A program made the position numbers and the translations under genes. The notes beneath the pieces are model-generated. The model saw only the letters and a program-made list of their open reading frames with translations, searched no databases and was not told the DNA's origin. Positions 36,956 to 54,883 of a stretch of 64,000 bases of DNA are shown piece by piece (position 1 is the first letter of the stretch; every line of letters starts with the position of its first letter). Where the stretch lies: the NCBI RefSeq assembly GCF_030818485.1, contig NZ_JAUTAJ010000004.1:2637501-2701500 (forward strand), given 5' to 3'. The DNA comes from Pseudoroseomonas cervicalis. Lineage in GTDB: Bacteria; Pseudomonadota; Alphaproteobacteria; Acetobacterales; Acetobacteraceae.

Positions 36956-37072
36956 TTCTTTTTCTGAAGAAAAAGAAGCAAAAAGACTTTCTGTCAGGCT
37001 GCCGCCGTCCTCCCGTCACAGCAGGACGCCAAACTGACAAAAGTTTTTTGGTTCTTTTTTCCAAAAAAGAAC
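36956..37072. repeat. Hairpin-core-hairpin repeat, copy A (family 1)
   Basis: 117 bp between cobO and cobQ. Left arm: stem TTCTTTTTC / GAAAAAGAA, loop TGAA. Core: CAGGCTGCCGCCGTC ... GGACGCC with the hairpin GTCCT / AGGAC. Right arm: GGTTCTTTTTT / AAAAAAGAAC. It ends 2 nt from the cobO stop. The core hairpin here differs from other copies in both strands of the stem, keeping the pairing. Confidence 0.92.
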
Positions 37073-37074
37073 TC

Positions 37075-37674
37075 TTAAAACTCGATCCCTGCCTGCGCCT
37101 TCACCCCTGCCGCGAAATGGTGCTTCACCGGCATCATCTCCGTCACCAGATCGGCGGCTTCCAGCAAGGCGGGCGGCGCGTTGCGGCCGGTGACGACCAC
37201 ATGCAGCATCGGCGGCCGCGCGGCGAGGCCGGCCAGCACCTCCTCCACCGGCAGGTAGCCATAGCGCAGCGCGATGCAGAGCTCGTCCAGCACCAGAAGG
37301 CCGAGGCCGGGGCGCTGCATCAGCTCAAGCGCCTTTTCCCAGGCACGGCGGCAGGCGGCGATGTCGCGCTCCCGGTCCTGGGTTTCCCAGGTGAAGCCCT
37401 CGCCCATGCTGTGCCATTCGAGGTTGGGCAGCCCCTCCAGGATGGGCCGCTCCCCCGTGCTCCAGGCGCCCTTGATGAACTGCACCACGCCGACGCCCCG
37501 CCCCCGCCCCAGCATGCGCAGCGCCAGGCCAAAGGCGGCGGTGGATTTGCCCTTGCCCGCCCCGGTATGGACCATCAGCAGGCCCTTCTCGACGGTCTTA
37601 GAAGCCACCTCGGCATCCTGCACGGCTTTGCGCTTCGCCATCTTCTCGCGATGGCGCCCGGCATCCTCGGTCAT
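37075..37674 (-). CDS. cobO: Cob(I)yrinic acid a,c-diamide adenosyltransferase
   Basis: Adds the 5'-deoxyadenosyl ligand to the cobalt of corrinoids, using ATP. 199 residues, standard CobO/CobA(Salmonella) type. The P-loop variant VHTGAGKGKSTAAFG is near residue 36; FIKGAWSTGE, FTWETQDRERD and VLDELCIALRYGYL are conserved. The ATG overlaps the cobU stop (ATGA). Its stop lies 2 nt from repeat copy A. Confidence 0.95.
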   Translation of the reverse strand: MTEDAGRHREKMAKRKAVQDAEVASKTVEKGLLMVHTGAGKGKSTAAFGLALRMLGRGRGVGVVQFIKGAWSTGERPILEGLPNLEWHSMGEGFTWETQDRERDIAACRRAWEKALELMQRPGLGLLVLDELCIALRYGYLPVEEVLAGLAARPPMLHVVVTGRNAPPALLEAADLVTEMMPVKHHFAAGVKAQAGIEF

Positions 37675-38180
37675 GGCTCCCCCTTCAGCACCAGCGGCAG
37701 GCCGGCCGCGACGAAATGCACCCGCGCCGCGCGCGCGGCCAGGCGCTGGTTCAGCACGCCGGCCGCATCGCGGAACCGCCGCGCCAGCGCATTCTCCGGC
37801 ACGATGCCCAACCCCACCTCATTCGCCACCAGCACGGTGGGTGCGGCACGAGCCGCCAGCGCCGCCTCCAGCGCATCGGTGGCCGCGCCGATATCGTGCT
37901 CGCCCAGCATCAGATTGGTCAGCCACAGCGTCAGGCAATCGACCAGCGCCGGGCGCGGCCCGGCCTCCGCCAGCGCCACCGGCAGGTCGAGCGGCACGTT
38001 CAGCGTCTGCCAGCGGGAATCGCGCCGCGCCTGGTGCTCCGCGATGCGCGCGCGCATCTCCGCATCCCAGGCCTCGGCCGTGGCCAGATAGGCCCAGGGG
38101 GCGGGATGGCGGGCGATCAGCCCCTCGGCATGGCGCGACTTGCCGGAGCGGGCGCCGCCCAGGACCAGGGTGAAGCTCAT
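37671..38180 (-). CDS. cobU: Bifunctional adenosylcobinamide kinase / adenosylcobinamide-phosphate guanylyltransferase
   Basis: Phosphorylates adenosylcobinamide and converts it to the GDP derivative in nucleotide-loop assembly (CobP in Pseudomonas nomenclature). 169 residues. P-loop LVLGGARSGKSRHAE at the N-terminus, then YLATAEAWDAEMRARIAEHQARR, DCLTLWLTNLM and VANEVGLGIVPENALARRFRD. The ATG at 38180 fits the family; a TTG at 38216 is the less likely alternative. Confidence 0.94.
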   Translation of the reverse strand: MSFTLVLGGARSGKSRHAEGLIARHPAPWAYLATAEAWDAEMRARIAEHQARRDSRWQTLNVPLDLPVALAEAGPRPALVDCLTLWLTNLMLGEHDIGAATDALEAALAARAAPTVLVANEVGLGIVPENALARRFRDAAGVLNQRLAARAARVHFVAAGLPLVLKGEP

Positions 38181-38221
38181 GCGGGCCGGGGTAGCCTGAC
38201 GTCGGAAGAGGGGCAAGAATC

Positions 38222-38336
38222 TTCTTTTTCTGAAGAAAAAGAAGCAAAAAGACTTTTATCAGGCTGCCGCCGTCTCCCGGCACAGCGGGACGCCAAACTG
38301 GAAAAAGTTTTTTGGTTCTTTTTTCCAAAAAAGAAC
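38222..38336. repeat. Hairpin-core-hairpin repeat, copy B (family 1)
   Basis: 115 bp between the LysR stop (9 nt away) and the cobU gene. Same left arm, core (GTCTCCCG ... CGGGAC hairpin) and right arm as copy A. Core sequence identical to copy F at 54769. Confidence 0.93.
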
Positions 38337-38344
38337 TTCTTCTC

Positions 38345-39274
38345 CTACTTCGGCTTCTCCAACCCGGTCAGCCCCGGCATCCTCTCCCGCATCAGCGCGA
38401 TGAAATGCCGCAGCCGCGCCGGCTGCAACCGCCCGGCGGGATAGACCAGCGACACCGGCAGCGGCGCCGCGCGCCAGTCGGGCGCCAGCTGCACCAGCCG
38501 CCCCAGGCGCAGATCCTCCGCCACCGCCCAGGCCGAGACGATGGCGGCGCCCAGCCCCGCCAGCGCCGCGGCGCGCAGCGCGTGCAGGCTGTCGGTGCCG
38601 AGCCGCGGGCGGATCGGGAAGCGCAGCGCCGCATCCTCGCGGGTCAGGGTGACCTCGTCGCGGTAATAGGTGGTCAGCGCCAGCCAGGGCAGGTCGCGCA
38701 GCGCCGCATCCTGCGGCGGCGGGCCATCGCCCCACAGCCCGGGCGCGGCGACGACGATGCGCGGCACATCGGCCAGCCGCACCGCCACCACCGAGGGCTC
38801 CTCCACCCAGCCCACGCGGATGGCGCAGTCGATGCCGTCGGCGATGAAATCCGGCATCCGGTCCTGCAGCCGCCACTCGACCGAGACCTCGGGATGCGCC
38901 GCCAGGAACTCGGCCAGCGGGGCGATCAGCTGGTCCTGGCCGAAGGCATGCGGCGCCTGCACCCGCAACAGGCCGCTCGCCCCCTCGCGGGAGCCGCGCA
39001 GCGTCTCCTCCAGCACCGACCAGCCATCCAGCACCTCCCGCGCATGGGCCAGGCAGCGCTCGCCATCCTCGGTCAGCGCCAGGCCATGGGTGGAGCGGCG
39101 CAGCAGCCGCAGCCCCAGCATCCGCTCCAGCAGCTGCAGCCGACGGCTGATGGTGGGCTGGGTGGTGCCGAGCTGCGCCGCCGCGGCCGAGAGGCTGCCG
39201 GCCTCGACGATGCGCAGGAAGCTGCGCAGCAGCTCGATACGGTCGGCGCCGCCGGCCGGCTCTGGGGTCCTCAT
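38345..39274 (-). CDS. LysR-family transcriptional regulator
   Basis: 309 residues. N-terminal helix-turn-helix at about 12-70 (IELLRSFLRIVEAGSLSAAAAQLGTTQPTISRRLQLLERMLG), effector domain after 95. The sequence resembles the CrgA/DsdC-like branch (LRVQAPHAFGQDQLIAPLAEFLAAHPEVSVE). It is divergent from an MFS transporter with a 93-bp intergenic region, a common regulator-efflux pair, so it probably controls the transporter. It splits the cobalamin genes but has no evident cobalamin link. Confidence 0.88.
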   Translation of the reverse strand: MRTPEPAGGADRIELLRSFLRIVEAGSLSAAAAQLGTTQPTISRRLQLLERMLGLRLLRRSTHGLALTEDGERCLAHAREVLDGWSVLEETLRGSREGASGLLRVQAPHAFGQDQLIAPLAEFLAAHPEVSVEWRLQDRMPDFIADGIDCAIRVGWVEEPSVVAVRLADVPRIVVAAPGLWGDGPPPQDAALRDLPWLALTTYYRDEVTLTREDAALRFPIRPRLGTDSLHALRAAALAGLGAAIVSAWAVAEDLRLGRLVQLAPDWRAAPLPVSLVYPAGRLQPARLRHFIALMRERMPGLTGLEKPK

Positions 39275-39287
39275 ACGTGCCACGTAT
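39273..39287. promoter_or_regulatory. Perfect dyad at the LysR/MFS divergent start, candidate operator
   Basis: ATACGTG-C-CACGTAT overlaps the start codon of the LysR gene. The T-n11-A spacing fits LysR-type sites. Its location points to autorepression and control of the divergent MFS gene. Confidence 0.5.
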
Positions 39288-39367
39288 AGACGATCTACGC
39301 TGCACCGCACTACAGCGGCGGCGCGAAGGGGAATATCTGGGCGGGCATCCTCAAGCGGACGCTCGCC

Positions 39368-40600
39368 ATGACCTCCCTCTCCCTCCCCCATACAGCCAGC
39401 GCATCCACAGCCGACGGCCCCTCCCGCGCGCTGGTGCTGCTGCTGGCCAGCGGCGCCGGTTTCTCGGTGGCCGCGCTCTACTACGCCCAGCCCATCCTCG
39501 GCGTGCTGGAGGGGCAGCTGCCGGGCGACCCGGCGCTGCTCGGCCTGGTGCCGATGCTGGCGCAGCTGGGCTATGCGCTGGGCATCCTGCTGCTGGCGCC
39601 GCTGGGCGACCGTTTCGACCGCCGCCGGCTGATCCTGGCCAAGGCGGCGCTGCTGGTCCTCGCCTTGGCCGGCAGCGGAATGGCGCCCAGCCTGCCCTGG
39701 CTGCTGGCCGGCAGCCTGGCGATCGGCCTGACCGCCACGGTGGCGCAGGACATCGTGCCGGCGGCCGCCATCCTGGCGCCGGAGCAGCATCGCGGCCGCA
39801 TGGTCGGCACGGTGATGACCGGGCTGCTGCTGGGCATCCTGCTCTCCCGCGTCGCCAGCGGCGTGCTGGCCGAGCGGTTCGGCTGGCGCTCGGTCTTCCT
39901 GCTGGCGGCGCTGGCCGAGGCCGGGCTGCTGCTGGCCGCCTGGCGCGCCCTGCCGCGCTTCCGCCCCACCACCACCCTGCCCTGGTCCGGGCTGATGCTG
40001 TCCATGCTGGCGCTGTGGCGGGAACTGCCGGCGCTGCGCCGCGCCACCCTGGCGCAGGGCGCGCTCTCGGTCGGCTTCAGCGCCTTCTGGTCGCTGCTGG
40101 CGGTGATGCTGCACCAGCAGCACCAGCTGGGCAGCGCGCTTGCCGGCGCCTTCGGCCTGGCGGGTGCCGCCGGCGCCCTGGCCGCGCCGCTGGCCGGGCG
40201 GCTGGCCGACCGGCGCGGGCCGGAGCTGGTGACGCGCCTCGGCGCCGCCATGGTGGCGCTGTCCTTCGCGGTGCTGCTGCTGGCCGCCCTGGCCCCGGCC
40301 ACGCTGCTGCCGCCCCTGGCGCAGCTGGCCATCCTGGCGATCGGCGCGGTGGGCTTCGATTTCGGTGTGCAGGCGACGCTGGTGGCGCACCAGACCATCA
40401 TCTACGGGCTGCGGCCGGAGGCGCGCAGCCGGCTGAACGCGCTGATGTTCACCGGCGTGTTCATCGGCATGGCCTCGGGCGCGGGTCTCGGCAGCCTGGC
40501 CTATGCGGCGGGCGGCTGGGCCGGGGTGATGGGGCTGGCGACGCTGGCCGGGCTCACCGCCCTGGCGCTGCGCCTCGGCGGCCGCGCCACACGGCGCTGA
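39368..40600 (+). CDS. MFS transporter (drug/arabinose-efflux type)
   Basis: 410 residues, twelve hydrophobic segments. N-terminal half has AALYYAQPILGVLEGQLPG and the loop motif GDRFDRRRLILAK, typical of major facilitator exporters (YdhP/AraJ-like). A second copy of the loop motif is GRLADRRGPELVTRLG. It probably exports a small organic compound or drug. Divergent from the LysR gene. A terminator follows. Confidence 0.86.
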   Translation: MTSLSLPHTASASTADGPSRALVLLLASGAGFSVAALYYAQPILGVLEGQLPGDPALLGLVPMLAQLGYALGILLLAPLGDRFDRRRLILAKAALLVLALAGSGMAPSLPWLLAGSLAIGLTATVAQDIVPAAAILAPEQHRGRMVGTVMTGLLLGILLSRVASGVLAERFGWRSVFLLAALAEAGLLLAAWRALPRFRPTTTLPWSGLMLSMLALWRELPALRRATLAQGALSVGFSAFWSLLAVMLHQQHQLGSALAGAFGLAGAAGALAAPLAGRLADRRGPELVTRLGAAMVALSFAVLLLAALAPATLLPPLAQLAILAIGAVGFDFGVQATLVAHQTIIYGLRPEARSRLNALMFTGVFIGMASGAGLGSLAYAAGGWAGVMGLATLAGLTALALRLGGRATRR

Positions 40601-40657
40601 GGCGGCGCGGCCCGCGGGGGCCGCAAGCGGGCGGGCCGGCGCGGCCCGCCGCGGTCA

Positions 40658-40691
40658 GGCGGCGCTTCCGGTCCCGGGGCGCCGCCTTTTT
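40658..40691 (+). terminator. Rho-independent terminator after the MFS gene
   Basis: GGCGGCGC pairs with GCGCCGCC around a GC-rich loop, followed by TTTTT. It lies between the convergent MFS and chemoreceptor genes. Confidence 0.8.
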
Positions 40692-40824
40692 CTGTCCTGG
40701 TGTCCGGGCGCGGGATCGTCCTGGCGCCTCGCGGCCCTTCTGCCGGGGGCCCGGGCCGCGGACATGCCCGGCACAAAGCCGGCGCCCCACCGCCCAGGCC
40801 GTCCCCCGGGCCGGCCGCCGCGCC

Positions 40825-42132
40825 TCAGACGGCGCGGCGCGCCTTCTCCATGAAGCCGCCGACCTCGCGGTTCAGCCGCTCCGCCTCGCCCGACAGGCCG
40901 GCCGCCGCCTCGCGCATCGCGGTGGCGGCGCTGTCGGTGGCGCCCGCCGCCTCGCGCACCGCGTCGATGTTGCGGCCGACCTCGGCGGTGCCGGCGGCGG
41001 CCTGCTCGACGCTGCGGGCGATCTCGGCGGTGGCGGCGCTCTGCTCCTCCACCGCGGCGGCGATGGCGGTCGCCACCTCATCGGTCTCGCGCACCGTGCT
41101 GCCGATGCGGGTGATGGCCTCCACCGCCTCGGCCAGCGCGCTCTGCATGGCGCCGATCTGCTGGGTGATCTGGTCGGTGGCGCGCGCCGTCTGGCTGGCC
41201 AGCCCCTTCACCTCGCCGGCCACCACGGCGAAGCCCTTGCCGGCCTCGCCCGCCCGCGCCGCCTCGATCGTGGCGTTCAGCGCCAGCAGATTGGTCTGGC
41301 CGGCAATGCCGGAGATCAGCTGCACCACCTCTCCCACCTGCTGCGCCGCCTCGTTCAGCCCGGCGACCGTGGCGTTGGTCTGCTCCACCGCGGTGACCGC
41401 CGAGCGCGCGATCTGCGAGGCGCGGCCGACCTGGCGGGTGATCTCCGACACGGCGGAGGAAAGCTGCCGCGCCGCGACGGCGACATTCTGCGAGCTGCTC
41501 TCGGCCTGATGCGTGGCGGTGGCGGCGGCGGCGGCGCGCTGGCTGGTCTGCTCGGCGGTGGCGGACATGCCGGTGGCGGTGTCGCGCAGCCCCCCGGCGG
41601 CGCTGGCCACGTTGCGGATGACGCCGCCGACGCTGGCCTCGAACCCCTCGGCGAAGGCGGTGAATTCGCGCGCCTTGCCTTCCATGGCGTTGGCAGCGGC
41701 GTTGATGTCGTTGGCGCCGCTGCGGAAGGCGCCGGGCAGGCCGCGCAGCAGCACCTTGCGGTAGTAGCGCCCGCCGCTGGCCGCGCGCATGGCGCCGGCG
41801 GATTCGCGCACATAGGCGTCGGTGATGTCGAGCAGGTGGTTCACCCGCCGCTGCAGCAGGCCGAGCGCGCCGGGCGCCGGCACCTCCAGCACGCGGGCTT
41901 CCAGGTCGCCCTTGGCGGCGGCCTCGGCCACCGCGGCGGTGCGGCGCATCGCGCCTTCCTGCCGCAGCAGCGCCGCCAGCGCGGCGCCGCAGGCCAGCGC
42001 CGGCAGCAGGGCCAGCCCCGTCTCCACCGCCGTCGCGCCGGAGAGGGCGACATAGCCGGCATGGCCGGCGGCGAGCAAGGTGGCGAGACCGAGGGGCCAG
42101 CGCGGCTCAGAGAGAGAAGACAAAGCGCTCAT
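40825..42132 (-). CDS. Methyl-accepting chemotaxis protein (Aer-like signalling partner)
   Basis: 435 residues. Two membrane segments at about 12-30 and 37-55 with hardly any periplasmic loop, then a HAMP-like linker and a long coiled coil. The conserved hairpin tip is present: [44 protein letters not shown]. It lacks a periplasmic ligand domain, so it must sense from inside or through a partner. The upstream PAS gene overlaps its start by 26 bp, and together they match the domain order of Aer. The ATG at 42132 is chosen because it starts directly before the first helix. Confidence 0.88.
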
Positions 42133-42631
42133 AGCTGGTTCCCTGTTTCGCCAGCAGCTCCTGCAGCGCGGTGGTGCCCTGCTGCATGCCCTGCTTGCGG
42201 TCCGCCGCCGCCTGCTCGATCCGCAGCAGCTGCTGATAGACCGGCCAGACCTTGGCCACCTGCGCCGCATCCGGCTTGCGGCGGTTGGAATGGTAGCCGA
42301 CCACCCGCCCCTGCGCGTCGCGCGTCGGCGTGGCATGGGCGAAGACCCAGTAATGGTCGCCATCGGCGGCCATGTTCAGCACATAGCCGAAGAATTCCTC
42401 GCCACGCTCCAGCGTGTCCCAGAACAGCTTGAAGACGCAGCGCGGCATCTCCGGATGGCGGACGATGCTGTGCGGCTGGCCCAGGATCTCGGCCGCGCTG
42501 TATTTCGCGACGCGCAGGAAGACGTCATTCGCATAGACGATGCGACCCTTCAGGTCCGTCTTGCTGACGATAAGCTCCTCCTCGCCGAGCGGGGCTTCCC
42601 GGCCCGTCGGCGTGATCTTGGTCCTGGCCAT
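42107..42631 (-). CDS. PAS-domain protein, Aer-type redox/oxygen sensor
   Basis: 174 residues. One PAS domain (about 15-125) with strong likeness to the Aer [36 protein letters not shown], then [18 protein letters not shown] and [13 protein letters not shown]. Aer binds FAD and reports the redox state; FAD binding here is inferred. The C-terminus continues with a helix ([14 protein letters not shown]). The coding end overlaps the chemoreceptor start by 26 bp, so the two are translated together. In E. coli both parts are one protein; here they are separate. Confidence 0.85.
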
Positions 42632-42789: not shown

Positions 42790-42819
42790 TTGACACCCGC
42801 CCCGGCCGCCGCCTAAGCA
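42790..42819 (+). promoter_or_regulatory. Promoter for the cobalamin riboswitch transcript
   Basis: TTGACA (42790-42795), 18 nt, TAAGCA (42814-42819). The start of transcription would be near 42826, right before the riboswitch. Confidence 0.55.
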
Positions 42820-42827
42820 CGCTGCGA

Positions 42828-43012
42828 TGGTCCTCCCGAAGGGGAGGTGAAAAGGGAATGCGGTGCCGGCCCTGCTCCTCGGCGAGGAAGGTCCCAATCC
42901 GCGGCTGCCCCCGCAACTGTAGGCGGAGAGCGCCCCGCCACCCCGGCCACTGGGCACGCGCCTGGGAAGGCCGGCGGGGCGCGCCGGATCCGCGAGCCAG
43001 GAGACCTGCCAT
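42828..43012 (+). ncRNA. Cobalamin riboswitch
   Basis: AdoCbl-type aptamer: GAAAAGGGAA near 42849, GCCCCCGCAACTGT near 42907, and the B12 box GCCAGGAGACCTGCC ending at 43010. High cobalamin would shut down the DUF1636-cobW-cobN operon. Between aptamer and first gene (43013-43168) the leader has GC-rich hairpins; one (GCGCCCC / GGGGCGC) ends next to the ribosome site GGAGAG of the DUF1636 gene, so control of translation start is likely. The aptamer is seen; the mechanism is inferred. Confidence 0.95.
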
Positions 43013-43168
43013 CACCCATCGGATCGTGCCACCGGGCGGGGTGCCCCGGCGGGCGGCGACGGGCCCGGGCGTCACGCTTCGGGCACCCTCGACCCGGGCG
43101 GGCCCGCGCCCCTCCGGGCGGTCGGCATCCCGTGCCTGCACGCGCCCCCCGGGGCGCCGGAGAGACGC

Positions 43169-43600: not shown

Positions 43601-44628
43601 GCGCGCTTGAAAAGGTTCCCGCCACCATCGTCACCGGCTTCCTCGGCGCCGGGAAGACCACCCTGCTGCGCCATGTGATGAGCCGCGCCGGGGGCCGCCG
43701 CATCGCCATCATCGTCAATGAGTTCGGCAGCCTCGGCGTCGATGGCGAGACGCTGAAGGATTGCGGCATCCCCGGCTGCGAGGCGGAGAACATCGTCGAG
43801 CTGGCCAATGGCTGCCTCTGCTGCACCGTGGCCGATGATTTCATCCCGACCATCGAGGCGCTGCTCGGCCGGCCCAACCCGCCCGAGCACATCCTGATCG
43901 AGACCTCGGGCCTCGCGCTCCCCAAGCCGCTGATCAAGGCCTTCAACTGGCCCGCCATCCGCTCCCGCGTTACGGTCGATGGCGTGGTGACGGTGGTGGA
44001 CAGCCCCGCCGCCGCCGAAGGCCGCTTCGCCGACGACCCGGAGGCGGTGGCCGCCCAGCGCGCGGCCGACCCCTCCCTCGACCACGACAACCCGCTGGCC
44101 GAGGTGTTCGAGGACCAGCTGAACGCCGCCGACATCGTCGTGCTGAACAAGGCCGATTTGCTGGATGAGGCCGCGCTCGCGGCGCTGCGCGCCGATCTCG
44201 CCCCGCGCCTGCCGCGCGCGGTGAAGCTGGTGCCGGCGAAGGAGGGCGCGCTGGACCCGGCCATCCTGCTCGGCCTGAACGCCGCCGCCGAGGAGGATCT
44301 CGACGCCCGCCCCTCGCACCACGATGCGGTGGATGGCGCGCATGAACACGACGATTTCGAGAGCTTCGTGCTGGTGCTGCCGGAATACGACTCGGCGGAT
44401 GATCTGATGCGCCGCCTGCCGGAGGTCGCCGCGCGGCACGACATCCTGCGCATCAAGGGCTTCGTGCGGCTGAAGGGCAAGCCGATGCGCCTGGCCGTGC
44501 AGGGCGTCGGCCGCCGCTTCCGCCAGCATTTCGACCGGGCCTGGACGGATGACCGGGACGGGCATCTGGTCGTCATCGGGCAGACCGGGATGGATGTGGA
44601 AGCGATCGCGAAGGAGATTCTCGCCTAA
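43597..44628 (+). CDS. cobW: CobW GTPase (COG0523 metallochaperone)
   Basis: 343 residues. G1 motif FLGAGKTTLLRHV, the metal motif GCLCCTV (CxCC), the switch/guanine motifs LIETSGLALP and VLNKADLL, and a His-rich loop (SHHDAVDGAHEHDDF) followed by the CobW C-terminal domain. CobW is thought to deliver cobalt for the cobaltochelatase, and the next gene encodes its large subunit CobN. The ATG overlaps the preceding stop. It ends 4 nt before repeat copy C. Confidence 0.94.
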   Translation: MSALEKVPATIVTGFLGAGKTTLLRHVMSRAGGRRIAIIVNEFGSLGVDGETLKDCGIPGCEAENIVELANGCLCCTVADDFIPTIEALLGRPNPPEHILIETSGLALPKPLIKAFNWPAIRSRVTVDGVVTVVDSPAAAEGRFADDPEAVAAQRAADPSLDHDNPLAEVFEDQLNAADIVVLNKADLLDEAALAALRADLAPRLPRAVKLVPAKEGALDPAILLGLNAAAEEDLDARPSHHDAVDGAHEHDDFESFVLVLPEYDSADDLMRRLPEVAARHDILRIKGFVRLKGKPMRLAVQGVGRRFRQHFDRAWTDDRDGHLVVIGQTGMDVEAIAKEILA

Positions 44629-44632
44629 GGTC

Positions 44633-44741
44633 TTCTTTTTCTGAAGAAAAAGAAGTTTTCTTTCAGGCTGCCGCCGTCTCCCGGAGAAGCGGGACGCCAA
44701 ACTGAAAAAAGTTTTTTGGTTCTTTTTTCCAAAAAAGAACC
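44633..44741. repeat. Hairpin-core-hairpin repeat, copy C (family 1)
   Basis: 109 bp filling most of the gap between cobW (stop 4 nt upstream) and cobN (start 18 nt downstream). Same orientation as the transcript: left arm first. The segment between left arm and core is shortened to GTTTTCTTTCAGG. The core hairpin loop differs (GAGAAG). Confidence 0.93.
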
Positions 44742-47700: not shown

Positions 47701-48083
47701 CGCTGCTCGGCGCCAGCCCCGCCCTCTATCACGCCGACACCAGCCGCCCCGGCGAGCCGCGCCTGCGCAGCGTGGCGGAGGAGGTGGCGCGCGTGTTGCG
47801 CGGCCGCGCCGCCAACCCGGCCTGGATCGCCGGCATGATGCGCCATGGCCGCCGCGGCGCCGCCGAGATCGCCCGCGCGGTGGAGGCGCTGCACGGCTTC
47901 GCCGCCACCCTGCCCACCCGCTTCGACCGGCAGTTCGATTTGCTGCACGCGGCGACGCTGGGCGACGAGGCGGTCCTGTCCTTCCTGGCCGAGCACAATC
48001 CGGAGGCGCTGGCGGCGCTGCGGGCGCGCTTCGCCGAGGCCCGCGAGAGGGGGCTGTGGCATGCGCGGCGGAATGATGTTTAG
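44760..48083 (+). CDS. cobN: Cobaltochelatase subunit CobN
   Basis: Large subunit of the aerobic, ATP-dependent chelatase that inserts cobalt into hydrogenobyrinic acid a,c-diamide. 1107 residues, somewhat shorter than the 1275-residue Pseudomonas denitrificans protein. Family segments: LGHAPADLVLLSFSDADL, LRHPMSVDLY, LRRGADALLHLGTHGTLEWLPGKAVALSEAC, FIVNNPGEAAVAKRR, TGRNLYSIDPRGVPT. The start is a TTG with no clear ribosome site, directly after repeat copy C. The two smaller chelatase subunits are not in the window. Confidence 0.93.
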   Translation: MHLLVRETRSLDDAEQAEDLGHAPADLVLLSFSDADLGAAAMGWSRLAEPRPTLRLANLGRLRHPMSVDLYAEDTLARSRCVVIRLLGGLEYWRYGAEEVAALCRREGIPLALLPGDGRDDARLAELSTVPPAMHARMDALLAEGGPDNLAAALRLAAHWAGLGADDGTPPIPLLLCGEHGLGAEEADPQAVIVFYRSHLLSGDIAPMLELATALRARGLRVRGLHVASLKEPGSAALVRERLSAWRPAVVLNATAFAARQEGESPLEAAGAPILQVMLSGAAREAWAASPRGLSQSDLAMQVALPELDGRLLTAAIGFKAPAEPLPGLEQSRTLLAPDASGIALAADRALGWARLAATPRAGRRVAVLLSDYPAMGGQEGHAVGLDSFESLAALLGDLASAGYDTGGATVTAETLAQALTRGAPTPLLSLEDYRAAFATLPEALRQSVTTAWGDPEDDPTCQDGAFHARHLELGKILMAVQPDRGGALDRSAAYHDPDTPPRHGYIAFYLALRRGADALLHLGTHGTLEWLPGKAVALSEACAPRALLGGLPVAYPFIVNNPGEAAVAKRRLGAVTIGHLTPPLKSAGHHGAAAELEKLIDEYAAADGLDRRRTALLRRAILDRAGEAGLLEEGHIPRDIPEEEALSRLDAWLCDVKELQIRDGLHIFGRPPAPERRALLLENLARATPGFDPARLDACAAAERDALLAALDGRFVPPGPAGAPTRGRADVLPTGRNLYSIDPRGVPTRSALALAEKAADDLLRRHRQEQGDWPRHLMLDLWGSATLRTGGEDLALALLLMGARPVWDAASARVTGVEIIPLALLDRPRVDVTLRISGLFRDAFPAQIALFDEAVRAIAARDEAPEWNALAASAAGLEGAALRQATARIFGAAPGAYGTGLEEILTKGAWARREDLGHAWIAGSAAAYGQGLEGVAAPEALRDRLALAEAFLHSQDHDGTDLLDSPEVAAHAGGFAAAAALLGASPALYHADTSRPGEPRLRSVAEEVARVLRGRAANPAWIAGMMRHGRRGAAEIARAVEALHGFAATLPTRFDRQFDLLHAATLGDEAVLSFLAEHNPEALAALRARFAEARERGLWHARRNDV

Positions 48084-48092
48084 TTTTCTCTC

Positions 48093-48204
48093 GTTCTTTT
48101 TTGAAAAAAAGAACCAAAAAACTTCTGTCAGTTTGGCGTCCCGCTGTGACGGGAGACGGCGGCAGCCTGAAAAAAGTCTTTTGCTTCTTTTCTTCAGAAA
48201 AGAA
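48093..48204. repeat. Hairpin-core-hairpin repeat, copy D (family 1), inverted
   Basis: 112 bp, 9 nt after the cobN stop and 26 nt before cobG. Inverted relative to copy C: the GTTCTTTTTT / AAAAAAGAAC arm comes first. The other arm has lost one T and one A on the two sides, keeping the pairing (TTCTTTTC / GAAAAGAA). Confidence 0.92.
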
Positions 48205-48230
48205 GATCTTCCTGAAAAGGCTCCCTTCTC

Positions 48231-49415
48231 ATGTCATCCGTGAAGGGCTGGTGCCCCACCCTCCACGCCCCGATGGACACGGGCGATGGCGTGCTGCTGC
48301 GGGTGAAGCCCTTTGGCGGGCGGCTGAGCGTGGCGCAGGCGCGCGCCCTGGCGGCCATCGCCCCCGGCGCCATCGAGCTGACCAACCGTGCCAACCTGCA
48401 ATTGCGCGGCGCCAGCGCGGAGGGCGCCCCGGCGCTGGCCCAGGCGCTGGTCGCCGCCGGGCTGGCCGATGCCGATCCGGGGCGGGAGGCGCGGCGCAAC
48501 CTCATCGCCTCGCCGCTGCTGGGGGATGACCCGACGATCCCGGCTGCGGCGTTGGGCTGGCGGGATGCGCTGACCGGGGTGCTGGAGGAGGCGGGCACCC
48601 TGCCGGGCAAGTTCGGCCTGGTGCTGGAGGCCGGCGGCGTGCTGCCGCTGGCGGGGGTGGAGGGCGACATCACCCTGCGCCTGGCCGGCGATGGCACCGC
48701 CTGGCTGCGGCTGCAGGAGGCCCCCTGGCAGGCGCGCGGCGCCACGCCGGGGCAGGTCGCGGCGCTGGTGGAGGCGTTCCGCGCCAGCGGTGCCAGGCGC
48801 ATGCGCGGCGCGGTGGCGCAGCTCGGCGCCGCCGCGCTGTTCGCCGCCGCCGGGCTGGTGCCGGAGGCTGCGCCCGCGGCTGCCGCATCCGCGCCGGAGG
48901 TGCTGGGCTTCCACCCCTATCCGGGCGGGGCGCGCGGCGCCTTCGGGCTGATGCCGGAATTCGGCGTGCTGGACGGGGCCGGGCTGCTCGCCCTGGCCGA
49001 TCTGGCCGAGCGCTTCGGCGATGGCATGCTGCGCCTGACGCCCTGGCGCGCCGTGCTGCTCGGCGGTGTGACGCAGCCGGCGGCGCTGGCGGCGGCGGCC
49101 CTGGGCTGGGTCACCGACCCGGCCGATCCGCGCCGGCGCATCGTGGCCTGCCCCGGCTCGGAGGGCTGCGCCAGCGGCCTGGCCCCGGTGCGGCAGGATG
49201 CGCGGGCGCTGCTGGCGCAGGGCGCGGTGCCGGGGCGGGGCTTGCTGCATCTCTCGGGCTGCGCCAAAGGCTGCGCGCACCCCGCGCCGGCGGCGGCGGT
49301 GCTGGTGGCGGCGCCGGGGGGCTATGCCCTGCTGCGCCAGGCCCGCGCCGGCGACACGCCGCTGCGCAGCGGACTCACCCTCGCCGAGGCGGCGGCCGAA
49401 CTGGAAAAAGAATGA
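48231..49415 (+). CDS. cobG: Precorrin-3B synthase
   Basis: Oxygen-dependent conversion of precorrin-3A to precorrin-3B, a marker of the aerobic pathway. 394 residues, built like nitrite/sulphite reductases. The Fe-S/sirohaem-type cysteine set is in VACPGSEGCASG and LSGCAKGCAHP near the C-terminus. The N-terminal KGWCPTLHAPMDTGDGVLLRV is typical. Its presence means the C-ring contraction needs O2. The stop overlaps the cobH start. Confidence 0.93.
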   Translation: MSSVKGWCPTLHAPMDTGDGVLLRVKPFGGRLSVAQARALAAIAPGAIELTNRANLQLRGASAEGAPALAQALVAAGLADADPGREARRNLIASPLLGDDPTIPAAALGWRDALTGVLEEAGTLPGKFGLVLEAGGVLPLAGVEGDITLRLAGDGTAWLRLQEAPWQARGATPGQVAALVEAFRASGARRMRGAVAQLGAAALFAAAGLVPEAAPAAAASAPEVLGFHPYPGGARGAFGLMPEFGVLDGAGLLALADLAERFGDGMLRLTPWRAVLLGGVTQPAALAAAALGWVTDPADPRRRIVACPGSEGCASGLAPVRQDARALLAQGAVPGRGLLHLSGCAKGCAHPAPAAAVLVAAPGGYALLRQARAGDTPLRSGLTLAEAAAELEKE

Positions 49416-50041
49416 GCGGCTACGACTACATCCGCGACGGCGCGGCGATCTATGAGAAATCCTTCGCCACCATCCGGGCGGAGGCCGATCTCACCGTCTT
49501 CTCCCCGGCCGAGGCGCGGGTGGCAGTGCGCGTCATCCATGCCTGCGGGCTGGTCGAGGTGGCGCGCCATATCCGCTTCGCCCCCGGCTTCACCCAGGCT
49601 GCGGAAAGCGCGCTGCGCGCCGGCGCGCCGGTGCTGTGCGACGCCAAGATGGTGGCGCAGGGCATCACCCGCCCGCGCCTGCCGGCGGCGAACGAGATCC
49701 TCTGCCTGCTGGACGATCCGCGCGTGCCCGATCATGCGCGCGCCATCGGCAACACCCGCTCCGCCGCCGCGCTGGATTTCTGGGGCGAAAGGCTGCGCGG
49801 CGCCGTCGTCGCCATCGGCAATGCGCCGACGGCGCTGTTCCACCTGCTGGAGCTGATCGATGCCGGCGCGCCGCCTCCCGCCGCCATCATCGGCCTGCCG
49901 GTGGGCTTCGTCGGCGCCGCCGAATCCAAGGCGGCGCTGGCGGCGTGGAACCGCGTGCCCTGGATGATCGTGGAAGGAAGGCAGGGCGGCAGCGCCATGG
50001 CGGTGGCCGCCGTCAACGCGCTGGCGATGGAGCGCGAATGA
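49412..50041 (+). CDS. cobH: Precorrin-8X methylmutase
   Basis: Moves the C11 methyl group to C12, giving hydrogenobyrinic acid. 209 residues. YDYIRDGAAIYEKSFATIRAEADL is the family start, and the catalytic histidine is in RVIHACGLVEVA (near residue 43). GNTRSAAA and PVGFVGAAESKAAL follow. It overlaps cobG and cobI by 4 bp each. Confidence 0.95.
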   Translation: MSGYDYIRDGAAIYEKSFATIRAEADLTVFSPAEARVAVRVIHACGLVEVARHIRFAPGFTQAAESALRAGAPVLCDAKMVAQGITRPRLPAANEILCLLDDPRVPDHARAIGNTRSAAALDFWGERLRGAVVAIGNAPTALFHLLELIDAGAPPPAAIIGLPVGFVGAAESKAALAAWNRVPWMIVEGRQGGSAMAVAAVNALAMERE

Positions 50042-50763
50042 GCGGCGTGCTGCACATCGTGGGCGTGGGCCCCGGCGATCCGGAGCTGGTGACGCTGCGC
50101 GCCGCGCGCATCCTGGGCCGCGCGCCGTCCTATGCCTTCTTCGCCAAGCGCGGGCGGGCGGGCCATGCCGTCACCATCGCCACGCCGCATCTGAACCCGG
50201 CGGCCGAGGCGCTGCGCTTCGAATACCCCTACACCACCGAGCTCTCCGTCGAGGATGCGCGCTATGCCGGCGGCATGGGCGAATTCTACGACGAATGCGC
50301 CGAACGCCTGGCCGGGCGCCTCTCGGCCGGCGAGGAGGTGGCGCTGCTCTGCGAGGGGGATCCCTTCCTCTACGGCTCGGCCATGTATCTGTTCGACCGG
50401 CTGCGCGGGCGCTTCGCGGTGGAGGTGACGCCCGGCATCACCGCCATGTCGGGCTGCTGGTCGCGCGCCGCCGCGCCGATGGTGCATGGCGATGATGTTC
50501 TCTCGGTGCTGCCCGCCACCATGCCGGAGGCCGAGCTGGCCGAGGCGCTGCAGCGCTGCGACGCCGCCGTGGTGATGAAGCTCGGCCGCAACCTGCCCAA
50601 GCTGCGCGCGGTGCTGGAACACACCGGCCTGCTGCCGCGCGCCATCTATGCCGAGCGCGGCACCATGCCAGGCGAGGTGGTGATGAAGCTTGCCGAGCGG
50701 GATGACAGCCCGGCGCCGTATTTCGCGCTGGTGCTGATTCCGGGGCGGCAGGGTGTGAGATGA
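50038..50763 (+). CDS. cobI: Precorrin-2 C20-methyltransferase
   Basis: SAM-dependent methylation of precorrin-2 at C20 to precorrin-3A. 241 residues, tetrapyrrole methylase fold. GVGPGDPELVTLRAARIL is the N-terminal SAM loop, then ALLCEGDPFLYGSAMYLFDRL and VTPGITAMSGC. The ATG overlaps the cobH stop. Repeat copy E follows 13 nt after its stop. Confidence 0.95.
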   Translation: MSGVLHIVGVGPGDPELVTLRAARILGRAPSYAFFAKRGRAGHAVTIATPHLNPAAEALRFEYPYTTELSVEDARYAGGMGEFYDECAERLAGRLSAGEEVALLCEGDPFLYGSAMYLFDRLRGRFAVEVTPGITAMSGCWSRAAAPMVHGDDVLSVLPATMPEAELAEALQRCDAAVVMKLGRNLPKLRAVLEHTGLLPRAIYAERGTMPGEVVMKLAERDDSPAPYFALVLIPGRQGVR

Positions 50764-50776
50764 CAGAAGAGAACAT

Positions 50777-50891
50777 GTTCTTTTTTGAAAAAAAGAACCA
50801 AAAAACTTTTGTCAGTTTGGCGTCCCGCCTGGACGAGAGATGGCGGCAGCCTGAAAAAAGTCTTTTTGCTTCTTTTTCTTCAGAAAAAGAA
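50777..50891. repeat. Hairpin-core-hairpin repeat, copy E (family 1), inverted
   Basis: 115 bp between cobI and cobJ, inverted like copy D. It is the most diverged of the six in the core (GATGGCGGC instead of GACGGCGGC and a changed loop), but both AT-rich arms are intact. It ends 8 nt before the cobJ ATG, so its arm (AGAAG) may serve as the weak ribosome site of cobJ. Confidence 0.92.
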
Positions 50892-50899
50892 GTTCTTCC

Positions 50900-51658
50900 A
50901 TGAACTGGCTGAAGATCATTGGCTTAGGCCCCGGCGCCGAAGACCTCCGCACCCCCGAAGCGACGGCGGCGCTCGCCGAGGCCACCGACATCATCGGCTA
51001 CGCCCCCTATGTCGCGCGGGTGCCGGCGCATCCCGGCCAGCGCCGCCACGCCACCGACAATCGGCAGGAGCTGGAGCGCGCGGCGCATGCGCTGGCGCTG
51101 GCGGCGTCCGGCGCGCGGGTGGCGGTGGTGTCCTCCGGTGATGCGGGCGTCTTCGCCATGGCCAGCGCGGTGTTCGAGGCGCTGGAACAGGGCCCGCCCG
51201 AATGGCGCGCGCTGGACATCGCCGTGCTGCCGGGGCTGTCGGCCATGTTCGCCGCCGCGGCGCGGCTGGGCGCGCCGCTCGGGCATGATTTCTGCGCCAT
51301 CTCGCTCTCCGACAATCTCAAGCCGTGGGAGCTGGTGGAAAAGCGCCTGAATGCGGCGGCGGGGGCGGGCTTTGTCATCGCCCTCTACAACCCGATCTCC
51401 AAGGCCCGCCCCTGGCAGCTCGGCCGGGCGTTTGATCTGCTGCGGGCGATCCTGCCGGGCAGCGTGCCGGTGGCCATCGCCACCGCCATCAGCCGGCCGG
51501 AGGAGCGGCTGGCGCTGACCACGCTGGCGGAGGTGGTGCCGGAGGCCGCCGACATGCGCAGCCTGGTGCTGATCGGCACGGCGGAAAGCCGGCTGGTGGC
51601 GCGGGGCGAGGGGAAGCGTCCCTGGCTCTACGCGCCGCGCTCGGCGCGCCGGGCATGA
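50900..51658 (+). CDS. cobJ: Precorrin-3B C17-methyltransferase
   Basis: Methylates C17 and drives ring contraction to precorrin-4. 252 residues. IIGLGPGAEDLRTPEATAAL, IGYAPYVARV, VVSSGDAGVFAMA, LPGLSAMFAAAARLGAPLGHDFCAISLSDNLKPW and ALYNPISKARPWQLG are diagnostic. No good ribosome site is seen except bases contributed by repeat E. The 3' end overlaps the convergent cobK by 31 bp. Confidence 0.95.
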   Translation: MNWLKIIGLGPGAEDLRTPEATAALAEATDIIGYAPYVARVPAHPGQRRHATDNRQELERAAHALALAASGARVAVVSSGDAGVFAMASAVFEALEQGPPEWRALDIAVLPGLSAMFAAAARLGAPLGHDFCAISLSDNLKPWELVEKRLNAAAGAGFVIALYNPISKARPWQLGRAFDLLRAILPGSVPVAIATAISRPEERLALTTLAEVVPEAADMRSLVLIGTAESRLVARGEGKRPWLYAPRSARRA

Positions 51659-52383
51659 AGCCAGGCGAGCGCATCCGCCGCATCCTCCACCACGGGCAGG
51701 CCGGGCGGCAGCGGCGGGCGGGCCAGCAGATGCACGGGCACGCCCAGCTCCCGCGCCGCCACCAGCTTGGCCGCCGTCGCGGCACCGCCGGAATTCTTGC
51801 TGGCGATGCGCTCGATGCCATGGCGGCGCAGCAAAGCGCGCTCCTCCTCCAGGGCGAAGGGGCCGGTGGCGGTCAGCACCTCGGCGCGCGGCGGCAGCAG
51901 GGCCGGGTCGGGCGGGTCGACGCTGCGGATGACGTAATGGTGCCAGGGCGCGGCGCGGAAGGCGGCCAGCTCCTTCTGGCCGATGGTCAGCAGCACGCGG
52001 CGCGGGGTGTCGCCCAGCGCGGCGGCCAGGGACGGCATGTCGGGGTGTTCCGTCCAATCGTCGCCCGCGCCGGGCATCCAGGCGGGGCGGTGCAGGCGCA
52101 GCAGCGGCGCGCCGGTGGCCCCGGCCGCCTGGGCGGCATTGGCGGTGATGCGCGCGGCGAAGGGGTGGGTGGCGTCCAGCAGCGCCTGGATGCGCTCGGC
52201 GCGCAGGTAGTCGGCCAGGCCCCCGGCGCCGCCGAAGCCGCCCAGCCGCGTCGGCAGGGGCAGCGGGCGCGGCGCGCGGGTGATTCCTGCCAAGGAAACC
52301 GTCACCTGGTATCGGTTATCCTCGGCCAAGGCACGGGCCAGGCCCGTGGCCTCGCCGGTTCCCCCCAGCAGCAGAACGCGCAT
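51628..52383 (-). CDS. cobK: Precorrin-6A reductase
   Basis: NADPH-dependent reduction of precorrin-6A to 6B. 251 residues. MRVLLLGGTGEATGLARAL is the family N-terminus, with DATHPFAARITANAA, LTIGQKELAAF and the SKNSGGAATAAKLVAARELGVPVHLLARP region. It is on the opposite strand to its neighbours: its start is 11 bp from the cobL start and its tail overlaps the cobJ end. Confidence 0.94.
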   Translation of the reverse strand: MRVLLLGGTGEATGLARALAEDNRYQVTVSLAGITRAPRPLPLPTRLGGFGGAGGLADYLRAERIQALLDATHPFAARITANAAQAAGATGAPLLRLHRPAWMPGAGDDWTEHPDMPSLAAALGDTPRRVLLTIGQKELAAFRAAPWHHYVIRSVDPPDPALLPPRAEVLTATGPFALEEERALLRRHGIERIASKNSGGAATAAKLVAARELGVPVHLLARPPLPPGLPVVEDAADALAWLHARRAERGA

Positions 52384-52394
52384 AGTCCCTCGAG

Positions 52395-54020
52395 ATGAAC
52401 ACTCCGTGGCTGACCATCCTGGGCATCGGCGAGGACGGCGTCGAGGGCCTCTCCCCCGCCGCCGCGACATTGCTGGCCGGGGCGGAGGCGGTGTTCGGCG
52501 CGGCGCGGCAGATCGCGCTGGCCGCGCCGCTGATCCGCGGCGAGCGCCACCCCTGGCCGAGCCCGATGCTGGAGGGAATCCCGGCGCTGCTCGCCCGGCG
52601 CGGGCGGCCGACCGTCGTGCTGGCCTCGGGCGACCCGTTCTGCTTCGGCATCGGCACCACGCTGGCGCGGCAGCTGGAGCCTGGGGAGTTCGTGACGCTG
52701 CCGGCGCCTTCCGCCTTCTCGCTGGCCGCGTCGCGGCTGGGCTGGGCGCTGCAGGATTGCGCCACGATTTCTTTCTGTGGGCGGCCGGTAGAGCGTCTGC
52801 TCCCGTTGCTTCAGCCGGGGGCGCGCATCCTGGCGCTGTCGGCCGATGCCTCGACGCCCGCGGAGGTGGCCGCGCTGCTGGAACGGCATGGCTTCGGCCC
52901 GACGCGGCTGCATCTGCTGGAGGCGCTGGGTGGCCCGCGCGAACGGGTCCGCGTCGCCGAGGCGCGCGGCTTTGCGCTGCGGCCCGATCCGCTGAACCTG
53001 CTGGCGCTGGAGGTGATGCCGGGTCCGGGCGCGCGCATCCTGCCGCTGGCGGCGGGGCTGGATGAGAGCCTGTTCGAGCATGACGGGCAGATCACCAAGC
53101 GCGAGGTCCGGGCGGTGACGCTGGCGGCGCTGGCGCCGCGGCAGGGCGAGCTGCTGTGGGATGTGGGGTGTGGCAGCGGCTCGGTCGCCATCGAATGGCT
53201 GCTGCGGCACCCGGCGAACCGCGCCATCGGGCTGGAGCCGAAGCCGGACCGGCTGGCCCGCGCCGCGCGCAATGCCGCGCAGTTCGGCGTGCCGGGGCTG
53301 GAGCTGGTCGAGGCCGCCGCGCCGCAGGGGTTCGAGGGGTTGCCGCAGCCGGATGCCATCTTCCTGGGCGGCGGCGCCAGCCGGCCTGGGGTGCTGGAGG
53401 CGGCCTGGGCCGCGCTGCGCCCGGGCGGCCGCCTGGTGGCCAATGCCGTCACGGTGGAGACCGAGATGGTGCTGCTGTCGGCCTTCGGCCGCTGGGGCGG
53501 GGAGCTGACGCGGATCGGCGTCGAGCGGCTGGACCGGGTGGGCGGCTTCCACGGCTACCGCCCCGCGATGACGGTCGTCCAATACGCCGTTGCCAAACCG
53601 ATGGCGGGGTCTGGGGAGACCCTGTCTCCCCAGCGGGGTCCAGGGGCAGCGCCCCTGGCCACGGCCGGTCTTGGCTTGCGCCCCTCTGCCACCGGCCCTG
53701 ATCTCGTCGCGCTGATCCGCCGCGCCGAGGAATTGTCGGGCCATCGCGTCGCCCGCCTCGCCGCCCCCGCCTTCCGCGAGGGCGCCGAGGCCTTGTCCTT
53801 CGCCGCCGACAGCCTCGGCCTTCCCGTGGTGTTCATCGACCGCGACGCGCTGCTGGCGGTCCAGGGCCGCTGCCCCTCGCGCTCCGAGGCCTCGCTGCGC
53901 GCCACCGGCATCGCCTCGGTGGCGGAGGGCTGCGCGCTGGCGCAGGGCGGGCGGCTGGTGCTGGCGCGCATCGATGGCAGCGGGGTCAGCTGCGCCCTTT
54001 CGACGGAGTCCGAGACATGA
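52395..54020 (+). CDS. cobL: CobL-CobE fusion: precorrin-6B C5,15-methyltransferase (decarboxylating) plus CobE
   Basis: 541 residues. CobL occupies 1-402 with two methyltransferase parts: the N-terminal tetrapyrrole methylase ([30 protein letters not shown]) and the C-terminal CbiT-like Rossmann part ([35 protein letters not shown]). It methylates C5 and C15 and decarboxylates. Residues 403-422 are encoded by a family-2 palindromic repeat. From about 423 a CobE/CbiG-C-type domain begins ([22 protein letters not shown] ... [15 protein letters not shown] end). CobE is normally a separate protein. The stop overlaps the cobM start. Confidence 0.92.
53601..53660. repeat. GC-rich palindromic repeat (family 2) inside the cobL-cobE coding sequence
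   Basis: CTGGGGAGAC / GTCTCCCCAG and CAGGGGC / GCCCCTG hairpins, the same building blocks as at 17004, 18460, 61490 and 61959. It is 60 bp long, 20 codons, so the frame is kept and the repeat becomes a linker rich in Gly, Pro and Ser. Confidence 0.88.
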
Positions 54021-54763
54021 CCGTGCATTTCATCGGCGCCGGGCCGGGGGCGGCGGACCTCATCACGCTGCGCGGGCGCGATCTTCTGGCCGCCTGCCCG
54101 GTCTGCCTCTATGCCGGCTCCATCGTGCCGCCGGCGCTGCTGGCGCATTGCCCGCCGGGGGCGCGGCTGGTGGACACCGCGCCGCTCGACCTCGACGCGA
54201 TCGAGGCCGAATACCTCCGCGCCCATGCGGCGGGGCAGGATGTGGCGCGGCTGCATTCCGGCGACCTCTCGGTCTGGTCCGCCATGGGCGAGCAGATCCG
54301 CCGGCTGGAACGCCACGGCATTCCCTACACCGTCACCCCCGGCGTGCCCGCCTTCGCCGCCGCCGCCGCGACGCTGGGGCGGGAGCTGACCATCCCCTCC
54401 GTGGCGCAGAGCCTGGTGCTGACGCGGGTCTCCGGCCGCGCCTCCCCCATGCCGGGGGGCGAGACGCTGGAGGGCTTCGGCGCCACCGGCGCGACCCTGG
54501 CGCTGCATCTGGCGATCCACGCTTTGCCGCAGATCGTGCAGCGCCTGGCGCCGCTCTATGGCGAGGACTGCCCCGTGGCGGTGGTGGTGCGCGCCTCCTG
54601 GCCGGAGGAACGCGTGGTGCGCGCGACGCTCGGCCGCATCGAGGCGGAGATGGCGAAGGAGCCCGCCGAACGGACGGCGATCATCTTCGTGGGGCCAGGT
54701 CTTCGCGAAGCGCAAACGGAAAGCGCTTTATATTCTACTGAATATCAGAGAAGATTCAGATAG
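54017..54763 (+). CDS. cobM: Precorrin-4 C11-methyltransferase
   Basis: Methylates precorrin-4 at C11. 248 residues. [50 protein letters not shown] and [21 protein letters not shown] mark the family. The ATG overlaps the cobL-cobE stop (ATGA). The end of the gene ([11 protein letters not shown]) is AT-richer than the rest, near repeat copy F. Confidence 0.95.
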
Positions 54764-54768
54764 TAATC

Positions 54769-54883
54769 TTCTTTTTCTGAAGAAAAAGAAGCAAAAAGAC
54801 TTTTTCAGGCTGCCGCCGTCTCCCGGCACAGCGGGACGCCAAACTGCCAAAAGTTTTTTGGTTCTTTTTTTCAAAAAAGAACC
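54769..54883. repeat. Hairpin-core-hairpin repeat, copy F (family 1)
   Basis: 115 bp filling the gap between the convergent cobM (stop 5 nt away) and cbiD (stop 2 nt away). Left arm, core and right arm as in copy B, with identical core hairpin. Confidence 0.93.

Follow-up and report, generated by a model that had tools for sequence, protein, structure and literature searches.

Why does the same palindromic sequence follow a stop codon six times within one cluster of cobalamin (cob) genes? The question is raised by a stretch of 64,000 nucleotides from Pseudoroseomonas cervicalis (NCBI RefSeq assembly GCF_030818485.1, contig NZ_JAUTAJ010000004.1, positions 2,637,501 to 2,701,500; 73.4% G+C), the whole of which we call the window. 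The six copies are palindromic elements of 109-118 bp, and the element recurs throughout the genome and in other Acetobacteraceae. It can be described as a ~115-bp interspersed repeat family in which two inverted AT-rich units surround an apparently exchangeable GC-rich core. We consider it rather probable that the element is a non-autonomous repeat, resembling a bacterial interspersed mosaic element (BIME) or a miniature inverted-repeat transposable element (MITE), which acts as a bidirectional intrinsic terminator.

A dispersed palindromic element with two core types

All six copies located by the first-pass annotation were recovered in place and align with a mean column identity of 82%. They are given below with their neighbouring genes, which were assigned with NCBIfam and Pfam; the parts of one copy follow, and the core types are described further on.

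36955-37072, + strand: copy A, type 1 core, between cobO (stop at 37075, - strand) and cobQ
38221-38336, + strand: copy B, type 1 core, between a lysR-type regulator (stop at 38345, - strand) and cobU
44632-44740, + strand: copy C, type 1 core without the CAAAAAGAC stretch, between cobW (stop at 44628) and cobN
48093-48206, - strand: copy D, type 1 core, between cobN (stop at 48083) and cobG
50777-50892, - strand: copy E, type 1 core, between cobI (stop at 50763) and cobJ
54768-54882, + strand: copy F, type 1 core, between the convergent genes cobM (stop at 54763) and cbiD (stop at 54886)
38221-38244, + strand: left arm hairpin of copy B, CTTCTTTTTC-TGAA-GAAAAAGAAG
38245-38313, + strand: GC core of copy B with its two tails, which can pair with each other into a central stem or one long hairpin
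38314-38336, + strand: right arm hairpin of copy B, GGTTCTTTTTT-CC-AAAAAAGAAC

Comparing the ends of open reading frames (ORFs) with those of the elements, we measured arm distances to the nearest stop codon of 2 (A), 8 (B), 3 (C), 9 (D), 13 (E) and 4 nt (F, with 3 nt on its other side), which is the range of 2 to 13 nt that had been claimed. Five of the six copies lie between co-directional genes and copy F between convergent ones; the four co-directional pairs named earlier (cobW-cobN, cobN-cobG, cobI-cobJ and cobO-cobQ) are right according to NCBIfam and Pfam.

Read in order, the element consists of the left hairpin CTTCTTTTTC-TGAA-GAAAAAGAAG, a tail CAAAAAGACTTTT (shorter in copy C), a GC-rich core of ~40 nt, the mirror tail AAAAGTTTTTTG and the right hairpin GGTTCTTTTTT-nn-AAAAAAGAAC, so that each inverted AT-rich unit is a perfect hairpin with a CAAAAAnACTTTT tail. 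The tails pair mutually: a single strand folds as three hairpins (the best fold for copies A, B and F) or as one long hairpin (D and E). Folding z-scores of the six copies range from -2.8 to -4.9, with energies well under those of shuffled sequences. For 20 copies drawn from several genera, the consensus structure is the long hairpin. Covarying pairs, which had been proposed as a check on the structure, are few: two-sided changes were found at 0/14 predicted pairs across 51 symmetric-core copies, and at 2/29 pairs (each in one row) across 20 copies of several genera. There is little covariation because the arms barely vary.

The impression that all copies belong to the cobalamin region proved to be an effect of the window. 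Across the source genome (4.89 Mb in five contigs) the arm hairpin pattern TTCTTTTT-N(0-12)-AAAAAGAA, which is its own reverse complement, occurs at 150 sites against 0 for a reversed control, and the six copies are therefore not due to chance. A profile built from these six gave 90 matches in the fetched stretches of the same genome, namely 67 full-length copies, 14 one-armed or partial ones, one full but low-scoring copy and eight matches to the core only. The 67 with a score >60 and the right end present were used for the context counts below, apart from which stood the full-length copy scoring 54 and the eight core-only matches; the 14 partial copies were viewed separately. Confinement to a single locus, which would have spoken against the first description, is thus not what is seen.

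Two core types are present among the 67 full copies. In type 2 (51 copies) the core is a near-perfect palindrome, CAGTTTGGCGTCCCGC...GCGGGACGCCAACTG, while in type 1 (16 copies, including all six in the window) GGCTGCCGCCGTCTCCCG stands in place of the left half; this sequence is also found as short GC repeats without arms. The core region folds with a mean energy of -22.5 kcal/mol in type 1 and -37.1 kcal/mol in type 2.

Gene ends, stop codons and a probable role in transcript termination

Position relative to genes was assessed in the window's own genome and in that of a same-genus relative (G006), for which the best-scoring copies of each type were used out of ~500 first-look candidates. 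Genes were called with a home-made codon-score finder instead of being taken from an annotation; P-values are uncorrected and the copies are not independent. A gene ends within 30 nt of 62/67 full copies in the own genome and of 46/49 copies outside the cob loci in G006. The 67 own copies comprise 29 in convergent, 36 in tandem and 2 in divergent arrangement, against 21, 130 and 51 among 202 neighbouring gene pairs free of the element (convergent excess p 2e-8; divergent deficit p 1.4e-5). Results for G006 are alike: 33/55 convergent against 9/103 in the control, and 1/55 divergent against 27/103.

A bias is also seen in the stop codons themselves. Own genes that end at an element use TAA in 62/89 cases, compared with 11/185 elsewhere (40/83 and 10/90 in G006). 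The element edge tends to AAGAAT on gene-end and gene-start sides alike, with AA at -6/-5 common on both, whereas a T ahead of this edge (TAAG) is present on 26/48 gene-end sides against 1/18 gene-start sides (counted with simpler side calls than those of the codon-score finder). Given that TAAG occurs mainly where genes end, the AA of the element often completes the stop codon.

The two core types differ in their surroundings. The convergent share in the own genome is 2/16 for type 1 and 27/51 for type 2 (p 0.008), or 1/10 and 27/51 if the window copies are left out (p 0.016); in G006, leaving out the cob loci, it is 6/17 and 25/32 (p 0.005).

On either strand, the GC-rich stem, lengthened by A/T tails, precedes a U-rich stretch; this is the layout of a bidirectional intrinsic terminator. 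In two single-arm copies of the own genome (L103 and L131) and in a solo unit of a microvirus (see below), an unrelated GC hairpin lies just before the U-rich arm, as judged by eye. We infer from layout and position that the element would work as follows. Within each lineage the element would be amplified from a local master copy, and the new copies would come to lie at the 3' ends of genes. The GC core and the flanking A/T stems would form a long hairpin, for which the arm on the exit side would supply the U-rich stretch GUUUUUUGGUUCUUUUUU on either strand, and since the outer ends start with AAG, an element attached behind the T of a stop codon would rebuild TAA. Type 2, with its strong symmetric core, would end transcripts between convergent genes. 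Type 1, with an interrupted core as in the cob cluster, would be weaker, and might be tolerated between co-directional genes or be used there as a partial terminator or processing hairpin.

Several observations weigh against this interpretation. Of the six copies, a simple terminator scan recognised just copy C (on the + strand), and its overall number of sites did not exceed that in shuffled sequences. The five window copies between co-directional genes have the next start ~7-40 nt away; this leaves little room for a promoter, so the element must there be read through at least partly, since a complete stop would leave the downstream gene unexpressed if that gene lacks a promoter of its own. 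A scan for sigma-70 promoters found none at the cob copies, although the sigma-70 model may not suit this organism. The exit-side arm is kept in 7/10 tandem single-arm copies, which is not significant. Furthermore, the biases are much reduced in a sample of 62 elements (44 paired and 18 single) taken nearly all from outside the own genus: neither the convergent excess (10/62 against 12/148, p 0.09) nor the divergent shift (9/62 against 12/148, p 0.21) is significant, the TAA bias is weak (10/42 against 15/165, p 0.015) and a gene end within 30 nt is found for just 39/62. Strong position biases are consequently shown for the own genus only. In one genus (g112), finally, the core folds hardly better than shuffled sequences (z -0.4).

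Other observations count against the mobility of the element. No target-site duplication is apparent: the longest common string between the 12-nt flanks averages 2.65, compared with 2.75 for shuffled pairs, and flanks of 20 or 30 nt show no excess either. The Y1 transposase domain (PF01797, Y1_Tnp) has no match in the window's genome, nor in G016, G017 and G020. In nine pairs of facing arms spaced 130-6000 nt apart in the fetched loci, no transposase was recognised. Six of these pairs span 136-172 nt, one 424 nt (L285), one 864 nt (L296, a viral contig) and one 2444 nt (in G006). Of six ORFs at L296, five inside or overlapping the interval lack a Pfam match and the sixth, just outside, encodes a DNA methyltransferase; the 2444-nt interval aligns to the MFS and lysR-type genes of the window.

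A rather unlikely alternative to the terminator is an intercistronic element for RNA processing or stability. The cob copies would then be co-transcribed with their genes and the hairpins would set mRNA decay between them, by analogy with ERIC in Yersinia, for which such an effect is reported in the part of PMC2229807 drawn on here. The arrangement of five of the six window copies is as this would predict, and the two alternative folds also agree with it. So does the spacing of tandem pairs: the gap to the next gene is 50 nt or less in 13/27 type 1 cases against 4/30 for type 2 (p 0.008; data of the own genome and G006 combined, with cob copies common to both entering twice), yet as a continuous measure the gaps do not differ significantly (p 0.06). 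The main objection is that the 29/67 own and 33/55 G006 copies between convergent genes lie outside operons. For the suggestion that the copies are attenuation or processing elements the evidence is only indirect. Their context fits bidirectional transcript ends best, the weaker-core variant being commoner in tandem runs.

The terminator reading has a more far-reaching version, which we put forward tentatively as a possibility. Here the element would be a mobile bidirectional terminator that inserts into stop codons and repairs them, its AAG ends turning T|GA into TAA on either side where a gene stops. The universal arms, recognised by some factor, would constitute a 3'-end module onto which lineages load different GC cores; selection would sort strong cores to convergent ends and weak ones to operon interiors, and the repeat family would rewire transcript boundaries genome-wide. 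If the terminator reading is right, a spreading repeat would have supplied many transcript ends in these bacteria, which would then not have arisen locally, and translational coupling in the cobalamin operon would have been broken where overlapping gene pairs (TGATG, ATGA) gained the element. Orthologous sites with and without it, and hairpins that differ in strength by degrees, offer a natural system for studying how repeats turn regulatory, and the element can serve as a marker for typing and assembling genomes of Acetobacteraceae.

Empty sites, lineage-specific cores and the search for a mobilising gene

We compared the cob region in 13 relatives of the same genus and read five junctions. 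As had been proposed as a check, the same loci are indeed found without the element. At cobO/cobQ, cobN/cobG and cobW/cobN it is present in the own genome, G010 and G006, whereas most other relatives read empty, many with overlapping or close genes. For cobO/cobQ (site of copy A) the eight other readable relatives are empty and in five of these the stop codon overlaps the next start; G005, G009 and G013 have other short or unrelated sequence. The cobW/cobN junction (copy C) is filled in the own genome, G010, G006, G005 and G016. The cobI/cobJ junction (copy E) is filled in the own genome, G006 and G016, and in G010 consists mostly of N with an arm visible. At cobM/cbiD (copy F) the element is present in the own genome and G010; G006 is rearranged and G016 has a truncated element in opposite orientation. 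Some empty relatives (G003, G013) have other hairpin repeats in the gap at junctions other than cobO/cobQ.

In a CobN tree (midpoint root) the five carriers form one well-supported group, within which the own genome, G010 and G006 group together (100/100), and orthologous copies are retained across a CobN divergence of 4-15%. Because most relatives have empty junctions and the tree unites the carriers, the simplest reading is that the copies at the cob junctions are gains that were subsequently kept.

Comparison of G006 (L083) with the window also revealed rearrangement joints at 3181, 5544 and 7617 that coincide with element copies, which suggests recombination between copies. A fourth joint (L084, near 1.7 kb) is without one.

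The left-arm pattern was found in 88/299 genomes of the Acetobacteraceae, spread over 34/102 genera, against 0 for the reversed pattern among the matches listed. A draw of 385 genomes across the class gave two matches (the own genome and one other), both among its five Acetobacteraceae, and 0/380 in other families. With a looser DNA search 14/38 genomes matched, the own one included; a distant member of the class did so at only E 1e-4. Two plasmid records of P. cervicalis matched as well, the matched stretches starting 4 and 2 nt past annotated stops. Copy number is patchy even within a genus: in g112 the pattern counts (both strands summed, both arms matchable) are 275, 166, 0, 1, 0 and 203.

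Among 44 paired elements and 20 copies sampled from the own genome, the pattern delimited 40 cores, which come from 14 sources. Their mean alignment score per length is 0.70 for cores of the same genome, 0.51 for those of the same genus and 0.42 between genera (0.39 for shuffled cores); arm similarity between genera is 0.87. The left-arm pair adjoining the loop is mostly C-G (T-A in two Acidiphilium, G-C in G086), and otherwise the arms are near-invariant. Conserved ends with a local core would be the pattern expected from amplification of local masters under a shared end constraint.

Two observations concern viral sequences. A Microviridae record from cattle blood (MG945182.1, L253; positions 695-735), perhaps a phage of an Acetobacteraceae host, carries one arm unit, which follows a long GC hairpin and is flanked by two annotated features. 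In viral contigs, 45 stretches (L296-L340) contain the arm tail pattern; these are possibly prophages or prophage flanks.

The first-pass annotation had offered non-autonomous mobile elements at gene 3' ends as one explanation. Dispersal, counts from 0 to hundreds within one genus, filled and empty junctions and lineage-specific cores bear this out in part; neither a target duplication nor a mobilising gene was recognised. The broad features of a MITE are present (terminal inverted repeats, small size, no evident gene, dispersal, presence or absence at orthologous sites), and as for ends shared with an autonomous transposon, no transposase was recognised in the nine facing-arm pairs, all from fetched loci.

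The same data could be accommodated by a purely selfish repeat without any role, which inserts anywhere and survives where it is least harmful (behind stops and off promoters, in a gene-dense genome). Patchy counts within genera, lineage-specific cores and empty sites would all be expected of such a repeat, and the lack of a significant convergent bias in the sample of other genera agrees with it. By itself, however, it predicts neither the sorting of core types by gene arrangement seen in two genomes nor the TAA bias, and the retention of orthologous copies across the CobN divergence given above also speaks against it. We regard it as having a minor share of the probability, in which it does not differ from the RNA-processing element.

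That the element forms a REP/BIME system (REP, repetitive extragenic palindrome), moved by a RAYT, a Y1 tyrosine transposase acting on single-stranded hairpins, seems improbable to us. The inverted hairpin dimers can fold separately or jointly, as REP dimers do according to the part of PMC3733652 used here, and no target is duplicated. PF01797 matched 35/299 genomes of the family; 20 loci were read, of which 16 have a RAYT-type gene by eye. Twelve of these 16 are in element-bearing genomes, against 76/283 among the other genomes (p 1e-4), a comparison that covers 20 of the 35 matched genomes, with loci chosen when element counts were known. Against this stand the four genomes without a Y1_Tnp match named above (the window's own, G016, G017 and G020), the finding of an arm hairpin within 40 nt of a Y1-matched frame at only one of the 20 loci (G050), and arms that by eye carry no GTAG or CGTC tag. 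A RAYT as general carrier was rejected; the co-occurrence itself may be non-random. At two loci (L164 in G167 and L165 in G282) a Y1-transposase-like match lies inside one long reading frame, which we take to be methyltransferase-like.

It is similarly doubtful that the A/T-tract palindromes are DNA-level binding sites for a nucleoid or partition protein, with the position at gene ends being secondary. The arm sequence is conserved between genera beyond what pairing needs, and copies look scarce on the contigs other than the main one, C4 (3 among ~76 listed, against 23% of the genome; p 6e-6), but such a site leaves the lineage-specific cores and the association of core with context unexplained.

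Least probable of all is a MITE of IS630/Tc1 type, comparable to ERIC, RUP or Correia and duplicating a TA target: size, terminal inversion and the TA in many flanking stop codons would suit it, but shared flank strings do not exceed those of shuffled pairs, for which reason a TA duplication was dropped, and the T is found mainly where a gene ends, so that it belongs to the stop codon.

Known repeat classes and other features of the window

The first-pass annotation could not match the repeat to a named class, and this still holds. Rfam has no family matching any of the six copies above its gathering score, and no description of the repeat was found among the open-licence papers listed, judged on title and the start of the abstract, whether by words or by arm letters. 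We file the element as a new family of small interspersed palindromic repeats; the kind itself is familiar, the parts are unusual.

A close likeness is with REP dimers and BIMEs, described in part of PMC3733652 as pairs of short inverted palindromes that are separated by a variable spacer and fold separately or as one structure; like these, the element is intergenic, patchy and present in many copies. It differs from GTAG and CGTC REPs in its AT-rich arms, which in the alignments show no such tag by eye, and from the GTAG class also in having no repeat-flanked RAYT (no PF01797 match in the own genome, and a hairpin within 40 nt at 1/20 loci in relatives). CGTC repeats are given as missing in Acetobacteraceae in the portion of PMC3733652 cited here; the type 1 GC core has the CGTC-plus-palindrome layout of a CGTC REP, which is a resemblance only.

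ERIC (or IRU), in the part of Delihas 2007 (PMC2229807) on which we draw, is a 127-bp intergenic palindrome in transcribed regions with a reported effect on mRNA stability. The element is an intergenic palindrome of similar kind; unlike ERIC, which has TA ends and target duplications (a table in PMC2229807), it lacks a duplication and has no fixed core between genera. The same source describes, in part, the CIR repeats of Caulobacter and Brucella as alphaproteobacterial intergenic repeats of ~110 bp with arms, in which our element resembles them, and notes that CIRs contain repeated GANTC methylation sites. Since GANTC occurs in only 23/67 own copies (21 times at one left-edge spot), a link with CIR was rejected.

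Uptake-signal (USS/DUS) terminators of Neisseria and Pasteurellaceae, as covered in part of Kingsford 2007 (PMC1852404), are inverted repeat pairs enriched between convergent genes and read as co-opted terminators. The element likewise is a repeated sequence in inverted pairs that is enriched between convergent genes. USS/DUS are motifs of ~9-11 nt with generally at least 1000 occurrences per genome in that source, whereas the element has arms and a core and measures 115 bp, and its copies number from 0 to hundreds.

Short GC repeats without arms that match the type 1 core are located in the window at 1883-1937, 30923-30985 and 35179-35241, and their layout resembles that of CGTC-tagged REPs. 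Exact GGCTGCCGCCGTC sites number at least 59 in the genome; about ten of those listed are within full elements and some form arrays spaced 38-42 nt. GC-rich hairpin repeats of another family (GGCGGGGTCCGGGG...CCCCGG) are found at 16996-17067, 19720-19789, 53597-53636 and 61955-62026 of the window, and repeats like them occupy some cob junctions of relatives without the AT element.

The cobQ gene is apparently split over two frames (window 35482-36946), with the N-terminal CbiA part at 35765-36946 and the glutamine amidotransferase part at 35482-36603; the split may reflect a sequencing error or a pseudogene. A cobalamin riboswitch (Rfam RF00174, 109.7 bits), the sole Rfam match in the window, is present at 42813-43027, upstream of the run formed by a DUF1636 gene, cobW and cobN.

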